A stretch of DNA of 64,000 nucleotides from Moorella glycerini (GTDB lineage: Bacteria; Bacillota; DSM-521; Neomoorellales; Neomoorellaceae), in contig NZ_CP046244.1 of NCBI RefSeq assembly GCF_009735625.1, positions 2,666,001 to 2,730,000 on the forward strand, given 5' to 3'. The position numbers were made by a program, and so were the translations under genes. Below the pieces are notes generated by a model. The model saw only the letters and a list, made by a program, of their open reading frames with translations, was not told where the DNA came from and made no database searches. Positions 36,870 through 45,529 of the stretch are shown here, piece by piece (position 1 is the first letter of the stretch; each line of letters starts with the position of its first letter).

Positions 36870-36977
36870 ATGAGTAAGGTCGTGATTGCCCTTGATGAGG
36901 AAGAGTAGCTAATGCTGCAACGCACCTGTCTGGATAAAGAGGCCGGTGAGGTACTGGAAGGAGGGCACTGTCAGTGA
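36870..36977 (+). pseudogene. Broken paralogue of the 56-residue protein at 49304
   Basis: ATG AGT AAG GTC GTG ATT begins MSKVVIALDEEE, then codon 13, a Gln in the intact paralogue, is TAG. Past it the frame continues LMLQRTCLDKEAGEVLEGG, clearly related to LMLQRICLDKDAEEALEF of the intact copy, and then diverges. The 3' end overlaps the start of the next gene. Confidence 0.7.
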
Positions 36978-37927
36978 TATTCACCTGGCGGTTAAGGTTA
37001 ATTTTCCTCCTGGCGCTTATTTCGCTCATCTTGCTGTTGTCAGGCTGTGCTAAAACAAACCGTGAGGGGATAATCAAACTCAACGATTTACGCAGCGATT
37101 ACCCGGGGGCCAGTTATAACGGCCCTGCTGCGGCGGCGGAATTAAAGCGCCCCTTGCGCCTGGCCGCTGCACCGGTGATTTCGCCGGAAGAGGGCTACCA
37201 GGCTTACACAGATTTAGCCAGGTATTTGGAAGATTACCTGGAATACCCGGTCGAGTTTATCACCCGCCAGACTTATGCCGAAGTAAATCTCCTCATGAAT
37301 TCAGGTGACATCGACATAGCCTTTATTTGCACCTATGCCTATGTCAAAGGCCAGCGTGATTTCGGCATGGAACTGGTAGCTGCTTCCGAAGTGGGCGGGA
37401 GGGCGAAGTATGCTTCCTATATTATAGTCCCTAAATCCAGCCCGGTGAAGGATTTCGCGGGCCTGAAAGGCCGACGTTTTGCTTTTTCCGATCCCATGTC
37501 CATGAGCGGGCGCCTGGTGCCCCTTTATTATATCCAGCAGAAGGGCGAGAGGCCGGAAACCTTCTTTCAGAGTTATATTTTTACCTACAGCCATGACAAG
37601 TCCATCAGGGCCGTGGCCGACGGCATCGTAGATGGAGCTGCCGTTGACAGCCTGGTATATGAGGCCTTTGCTAAAAAGCATCCGGATATAGCCGCCAAAG
37701 TTAAAATTATCCAAAGGTCCGACGACTTTGCCTCTCCGCCCGTAGTGATGCGCCCGGGCCTGGATCCGGCCCTGAAGGCGAAGGTCAGGGAAGCTTTTTT
37801 GCAAATGGATAGGAAGGAAAACGGGCGCAAAGTTTTAAACGAACTGGGAATGGAGCGCTTTACAGCCATCAACGATGAGGCCTATAATTCGGTAAGGGAA
37901 ATCGCCCGTAAGGTGGGGTATCCGTGA
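36974..37927 (+). CDS. PhnD-fold periplasmic binding lipoprotein, probable sensor
   Basis: The 317-residue protein has a lipoprotein signal (lipobox LLSGC, Cys25) and a PhnD/TtrS/AioX-type binding fold: RPLRLAAAPVISPEEGYQAYTDLARYLEDYLEYPVEF, GDIDIAFICTYAYV, SYIIVPKSSPVKDFAGLKGRRFAFSDPMSMSGRL and AAVDSLVYEAF. The only other cysteine, Cys119 in FICTYAYV, lies in the loop that faces the ligand in this fold. It has no ABC transporter partners; the next gene, overlapping its stop, is a histidine kinase, so it probably reports an oxyanion to that kinase. GTG 36974 has GGAAGGAGGG upstream. Confidence 0.85.
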   Translation: MIFTWRLRLIFLLALISLILLLSGCAKTNREGIIKLNDLRSDYPGASYNGPAAAAELKRPLRLAAAPVISPEEGYQAYTDLARYLEDYLEYPVEFITRQTYAEVNLLMNSGDIDIAFICTYAYVKGQRDFGMELVAASEVGGRAKYASYIIVPKSSPVKDFAGLKGRRFAFSDPMSMSGRLVPLYYIQQKGERPETFFQSYIFTYSHDKSIRAVADGIVDGAAVDSLVYEAFAKKHPDIAAKVKIIQRSDDFASPPVVMRPGLDPALKAKVREAFLQMDRKENGRKVLNELGMERFTAINDEAYNSVREIARKVGYP

Positions 37928-45300: not shown

Positions 45301-45529
45301 CAGGCCCGGTGTCATTGCCGCTTCCTGGCACTATGGCCACTGGGCCTACGGCGCCCGGGACGTCGTTATCGACGGCCGAGTTGTCAAAGGCGACGCGCGG
45401 CGAAGAGGAGGTCTGTGTCCCAATCCTGTGATGCTCCTCGATACGCGGATGAAAACCACCTGCCTGACCGATCCCATCGGCGGCAGCGCTTCCTTCTATG
45501 ATACGAAGGTTAAAGTGCAAAAAGTATAA
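42371..45529 (+). CDS. Molybdopterin oxidoreductase catalytic subunit (TtrA/SrdA/ArrA clade)
   Basis: The 1052-residue protein begins with a Tat signal ([22 protein letters not shown]). The [4Fe-4S] cysteines are in [15 protein letters not shown] with the fourth in RLCPKGQAG, followed by [27 protein letters not shown], a hallmark of the tetrathionate/selenate/arsenate reductase clade. The probable molybdenum ligand is Cys in [13 protein letters not shown]. The C-terminal molybdopterin domain ends near [11 protein letters not shown]. Length about 1050 is nearer TtrA/SrdA than ArrA (about 850). The electron acceptor cannot be decided from sequence. A strong terminator follows. Confidence 0.9.
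   Translation: [1052 protein letters not shown]

Follow-up and report, generated by a model that had tools for sequence, protein, structure and literature searches.

The 64,000-nucleotide stretch of the Moorella glycerini genome analyzed here (the window) contains six intact genes, which we call X, S, R, B, C, and A, on a single strand between positions 36974 and 45529, with a transcription terminator between R and B. The window corresponds to C1:2666001-2730000 of a 3.56 Mb genome; among named relatives, Moorella stamsii (L094) is the nearest. Profile searches and direct reading of the DNA agree with a preliminary description of this cluster in both its coordinates and its gene content. We find that an ArrX-type sensory module is paired here with a molybdoenzyme from an uncharacterized clade separate from both TtrA and ArrA, and that this pairing is repeated across phyla. 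The features of the locus are as follows.

36974..37927 (+): X, a PhnD-fold lipoprotein of 317 residues, an oxyanion sensor of the ArrX/AioX type (PF12974, E 5.5e-70)
37924..39345 (+): S, a sensor kinase with sCache_3_2-HAMP-HisKA_3-HATPase architecture and two transmembrane helices (profile search, transmembrane prediction)
39365..40045 (+): R, an ArrR-like response regulator with receiver and LuxR-type (GerE) domains (profile search, R tree)
40075..40102 (+): intrinsic terminator GCCTAAGGG-AAAA-CCCTTAGGC-ATTTTT, separating the regulatory genes from those of the enzyme (direct reading)
40107..40122 (+): putative R operator CCAGGGATAACCCTGA, a palindrome between the terminator and B (half-site matching)
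40123..40151 (+): promoter-like element abutting the operator, -35 TTGGCC, 17 bp, -10 GATAAT (9/12 consensus positions, near chance taken alone)
40210..41118 (+): B, a four-cluster (4Fe-4S) ferredoxin subunit exported by the twin-arginine translocation (Tat) system (profile search; direct reading of the Tat motif, TRREFLAK)
41133..42347 (+): C, a quinol-linked membrane anchor of the NrfD/PsrC type with about 10 transmembrane segments by hydropathy (PF03916, E 1.4e-34)
42371..45529 (+): A, a Tat-exported catalytic subunit of 1052 residues with a molybdenum/tungsten bis(pyranopterin guanine dinucleotide) cofactor (Molybdop_Fe4S4, Molybdopterin, and Molydop_binding domains; Tat motif)

The X protein carries a lipobox (LLSGC), and its stop codon overlaps the start of S by 4 bp, confirming the overlap between lipoprotein and HisKA_3 kinase genes seen earlier. 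In a phmmer search, ArrX and AioX came before phosphite and phosphonate transport proteins among the matches to X: Chrysiogenes ArrX (6x6b, the best PDB match) scored E 3.3e-55, AioX 6e-40, and PtxB 2e-26. An AlphaFold2 (AF2) model of X (pLDDT 87.9) has ArrX, including its arsenate-bound form, as its nearest PDB structure in Foldseek (TMt 0.94, 40% identity), and a second structure aligner placed ArrX and AioX in a tie above PhnD and PtxB. Badilla et al. (2018, PMC5908839) list the ligand residues of AioX (Y88, C106, Y131, S161, S163, H192, and D210), which ArrX and ArxX also keep; all seven are present in X, as Y101, C119, Y146, S176, S178, H207, and D225. Cys106 is not present in PhnD (Badilla et al. 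2018, PMC5908839); its equivalent is kept in every X encoded beside ArrA and in all but one, distant, X encoded beside A enzymes. The PhnD domain of Citrobacter TtrS has none of the pocket residues within the stretch that aligns. By predicted fold, sequence, and pocket, X belongs to the AioX/ArrX/ArxX sensor subfamily. ArrX binds arsenate at 1 µM and leaves selenate, sulphate, tetrathionate, and thiosulphate unbound (Badilla et al. 2018, PMC5908839). The pocket of X suggests arsenate as its predicted ligand; arsenic, selenium, and tetrathionate, which the preliminary description had called all possible, are not equally likely candidates.

Two variants of X were seen elsewhere. At loci L187, L188, L190, and L191, X lies in a module with S and R (XSR) and has serine in place of the ligand cysteine, and no molybdoenzyme was detected nearby; these proteins form a sister sensor group. 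At three further loci (L058:4264-5949, L068:824-2653, and L123:3647-5365) X genes encode two tandem PhnD domains.

The domain architecture of S is identical to that of ArrS kinases adjoining ArrA in Firmicutes (L173/L177), and in our R tree the regulator falls among those of ArrA and A loci, apart from TtrR, whose model scores R at 71 bits against a cut-off of 290. TtrS itself is a fused PhnD-HisKA protein, whereas here X is separate and S is of the HisKA_3 type. The locus had been described as combining an AioX-style receptor with TtrS/TtrR-type signaling. Kinase domain, pocket, and model scores together rule out signaling of the Ttr type: TtrS has HisKA and lacks the AioX/ArrX pocket, while S and R match ArrS and ArrR of Firmicutes. 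The arrangement is thus the known ArrXSR one rather than an Aio/Ttr hybrid, and XSR control of molybdoenzymes has been published for AioXSR, ArxXSR, and ArrXSR (PMC5908839). The locus has every part of an ArrXSR module: X, its kinase, a response regulator without an AAA+ domain, and an adjoining molybdoenzyme.

At four other loci (L125:3101-5311, L124:4834-7065, L128:4970-7186, and L062:4579-6798), the gene after X encodes, in place of a kinase, a protein with two transmembrane segments and HAMP, sigma54 AAA+, and Fis domains. These proteins adjoin A enzymes in Deltaproteobacterial metagenome-assembled genomes (MAGs), contain the GAFTG motif, and in L125 include a detectable sCache_3_2 domain. 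They are putative one-component membrane transcription activators fed by a binding protein.

For the catalytic subunit we prefer the ATG at 42371 as start, which gives the 1052 residues originally reported; the alternative GTG at 42362 falls inside the ribosome-binding site. Among NCBIfam models, TtrA scores highest for A at 511 bits (cut-off 1750); the ArrA model gives 107 bits (cut-off 1600), and ArrAs of Firmicutes themselves reach 988-1197 bits with it. A maximum-likelihood tree places A in a 34-row clade with support of 100/99, and a broader FastTree likewise keeps A apart from TtrA and ArrA. TtrA, ArrA, a plasmid enzyme of Citrobacter arsenatis, and a haloarchaeal enzyme together with a Moorella paralogue all lie outside the 34-row clade. 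Within the TtrA superclade, which in a published phylogeny includes TtrA and SrdA, A thus falls in a separate, well-supported, and uncharacterized clade by its sequence, with SrdA of B. selenatarsenatis and AnrA of Geobacter sp. SVR outside the comparison. Wells et al. describe an apparently novel lineage that is sister to the TtrA/SrdA group. The enzyme had been assigned to a TtrA/SrdA/ArrA clade: membership of the broad TtrA group stands, and scores and trees separate A from both TtrA and ArrA. We rejected A as a genuine TtrA on its score (511 against 1750 bits) and on a clade that excludes TtrA (100/99), and as a genuine ArrA on its score (107 against 1600 bits), its separate clade, and the missing R/KGRY, the hallmark arsenate motif of ArrA (PMC11283718). 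The predicted molybdenum ligand of A is a cysteine, and its motifs read GRIE... and CEQSHH. Its active site retains the arginine of the ArrA site (GRI versus GRYT), and TtrA has no GR there.

The ferredoxin subunit scores just above the NCBIfam cut-off for DsrO (209 versus 200), and its relatives carry DsrO annotations, a hazard for mis-annotation. The same genome encodes a third enzyme of the TtrA superclade (G000:C1:3448364-3450757; L047, L036) with an in-frame TGA at the position of the molybdenum-ligand cysteine. This TGA is conserved in a second Moorella (G008:C1:1414806-1417205; L048), and selA and selB both score above their cut-offs in the Moorella glycerini genome. The third enzyme is likely a selenocysteine enzyme in a clade that has been described as all-Cys; downstream hairpins do fold, but not much better than shuffled sequences.

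Relatives of A are encoded at 334 loci in the genome collection, and the clade spans many phyla. A survey of the six-gene order found X-S-R-B-C-A in one orientation in other genomes of the Moorella family and also further afield, with Desulfosporosinus and a MAG labeled Myxococcota among the more distant carriers. This recurrence argues that the cluster is not a chance assembly. X is present at 17 of the 39 A loci that have at least 8 kb of upstream sequence, so that lipoprotein and enzyme co-occur beyond this genome, as the preliminary description had anticipated. In one relative (G008, locus L039) the regulatory genes have decayed, with S and R mostly lost and X, B, and A kept; in M. stamsii (L038/L094) X is broken into two open reading frames and S is truncated beside an intact enzyme.

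Between the two halves of the cluster, the terminator hairpin and its T-run, already noted after the regulatory genes, are conserved in four relatives (G005, G008, G011, and G017), although a consensus scan did not report them. Immediately downstream lies the putative operator. For Chrysiogenes, Badilla et al. (2018, PMC5908839) proposed that tcaggtttttccctga, which lies ahead of arrA, is the site of the regulator, and its half-sites are matched at 9 of 10 positions in the window and at 10 of 10 in two other XSR loci. A looser form of the palindrome lies upstream of 16 of 29 XSR-linked enzyme operons, against 1.1 expected, and in at least 12 of 29 after four hits are discounted that coincide with the terminator hairpin (L039, L040) or with long hairpins (L079, L082); the pattern was chosen after inspecting the hits, and because of kinship among some of the loci the computed probability should be taken as no more than indicative. 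A FixJ/ArrR-like palindrome is thus found upstream of the enzyme operon, where R would bind. The promoter-like element next to it is conserved in position and flanks among relatives.

Taken together, we propose that the cluster is an ArrXSR-type module for arsenic oxyanions controlling a periplasmic, quinol-linked BCA complex that reduces an oxyanion, most likely arsenate and possibly antimonate; from the sequence evidence we give this reading a probability of about 0.58. In the proposed mechanism X, a lipoprotein on the outer face of the membrane, would bind an arsenate-like oxyanion between its lobes, as its fold and conserved residues suggest. Loaded X would contact the external sCache domain of S, and phosphate would pass from S to R, as the domains of both predict. 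R would then bind the conserved palindrome at 40107-40122 against the weak -35 element and switch on the BCA genes. A and B, exported by the Tat system, would be held at the membrane by C, from which quinol electrons would reach A, and A would reduce the oxyanion, most likely arsenate, possibly antimonate. In outline, pocket, co-occurrence, and operator-like palindromes support the earlier proposal that a separate PhnD-like receptor senses an oxyanion and may induce an enzyme of the broad TtrA group.

Further, weaker support for arsenate comes from the genome: it has no ArrA match at E <= 1e-200, it carries two acr3 genes, and the window contains an arsC (TIGR02691, 202 bits; cut-off 174). Two relatives, G005 and M. 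stamsii, have a gene for an ArsP_1-family permease 137 bp behind A, where the window has an IS1634-family transposase gene (45809..47509, minus strand; NF033559, 415 bits) that separates A from arsC and the ArsR-family regulator. Other observations weigh against arsenate. The alignment shows AGRI in A instead of the R/KGRY motif, and histidine at the position of a lysine in ArrA. Selectivity in this sensor family is not fixed by the pocket residues alone (PMC5908839). The X and R trees indicate that partner enzymes have been swapped several times (among ArrA, A, and other molybdoenzymes), and since XSR modules move between enzymes, the ligand of the sensor need not be the substrate of the enzyme. 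Many sulfur-cycle lineages carry enzymes of the wider A clade, for the most part with no ars genes close by, so members of the clade may differ in substrate. Finally, arsC does not track A: arsC of the pI258 type is above its cut-off in only three of 12 genomes, among them the present one; of these three, one has no A, and five carriers of A have no such arsC.

An adjoining arsenic island had been described, and its arsC and ArsR-family genes are indeed present. They are not conserved with the cluster: the block at 47600-49124 of the window, with DUF169, ArsR-family, and DGC-domain genes, is common only to G005, where its relative position is the same. Around A loci in general, ars genes are only weakly enriched, with 5 acr3-like genes in 1.17 Mb. 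We ruled out the island as a functional partner, with arsC not tracking A and the arsR/DUF169/DGC block found only in G005.

Three other substrates or directions were weighed against arsenate reduction. The main role of the complex could be dissimilatory reduction of antimonate, as for AnrA of Geobacter sp. SVR, with X sensing antimonate or an arsenic oxyanion as its proxy; antimonate reductases (AnrA and SbrA) are described in the literature, and we consider this reading unlikely. The anr locus reportedly has X, S, R, B, C, and A genes as well, a layout that would lower the novelty of the present one. Reduction of a sulfur or selenium oxyanion (tetrathionate, polysulfide, thiosulfate, or selenate), with an arsenic-type sensor recruited for a different ligand, would fit the presence of TtrA and SrdA in the superclade, the first rank of the TtrA model, and the many carriers from sulfur-cycling lineages. 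That 511-bit score is nonetheless far under the cut-off, the arginine site of A is not in TtrA, and the pocket kept by X is not in true TtrS, which leaves this reading rather improbable. An Arx-like role in arsenite oxidation draws on the XSR control of the arsenite oxidases Aio and Arx; with X nearer ArrX than AioX, and ArxA in the ArrA lineage rather than the clade of A (published phylogeny), we regard an oxidase as very improbable.

A broader proposal is also conceivable: the A clade, across many phyla, might form, apart from ArrA, a second major class of respiratory reductases for arsenic (or antimony), which module swapping has repeatedly brought under the same ArrX-type sensor. We hold this possible, if doubtful. 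Arsenate respiration is surveyed with arrA, and arrA-based surveys would miss such a clade. Some arsenate respirers have no arrA (PMC9751042), and the A clade, repeatedly paired with an ArrX-type sensor, offers a concrete candidate for the missing reductases. With XSR control of molybdoenzymes already published, the novelty lies in the enzyme partner. The locus joins sensor, operator, and enzyme in a single testable unit, and it illustrates how one input module, XSR, serves different enzymes and kinds of output.

Among known systems, the selenate reductase SrdBCA of B. selenatarsenatis shares the B-C-A naming and, by published phylogeny, the TtrA/SrdA superclade. The molybdoenzyme of the Citrobacter arsenatis plasmid NZ_CP037863 (L129) is also of the TtrA superclade and has similar motifs (GRI... 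and CELSHH, against GRIE... and CEQSHH in the window), but it is 35.7% identical to A, has no XSR genes, and lies beside TtrA in the tree. This plasmid and similar ones of Citrobacter, Salmonella, Enterobacter, and E. coli encode a TtrA-superclade molybdoenzyme, B, and a putative anchor; the enzyme is annotated adjoining an arsADBC island, and the plasmid is typed as conjugative. AioXSR-AioBA and ArxXSR-ArxB'ABC share the X-S-R logic and the pocket of X, but have AtoC-type AAA+ response regulators and different enzymes, and the window's X is nearer ArrX. TtrRS-TtrBCA of Salmonella and Citrobacter resembles the cluster in its B-C-A order, Tat-exported ferredoxin, NrfD anchor, enzyme superclade, and PhnD-like sensing. 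It differs in that the window's sensor is separate rather than fused, its kinase is HisKA_3 rather than HisKA, its arsenic-type pocket is missing from TtrS, and A, which shares about 30% identity with TtrA, belongs to a different clade. ArrXSR-ArrAB of Chrysiogenes arsenatis and Firmicutes (PMC5908839) has a separate PhnD-fold sensor with the same pocket, an sCache-HAMP-HisKA_3 kinase, a non-AAA+ response regulator, a similar operator, and a neighboring molybdoenzyme of the Cys clade. The window differs from it in its enzyme, which is distant from ArrA in the tree and has no R/KGRY motif, and in its B-C-A order with an NrfD anchor.
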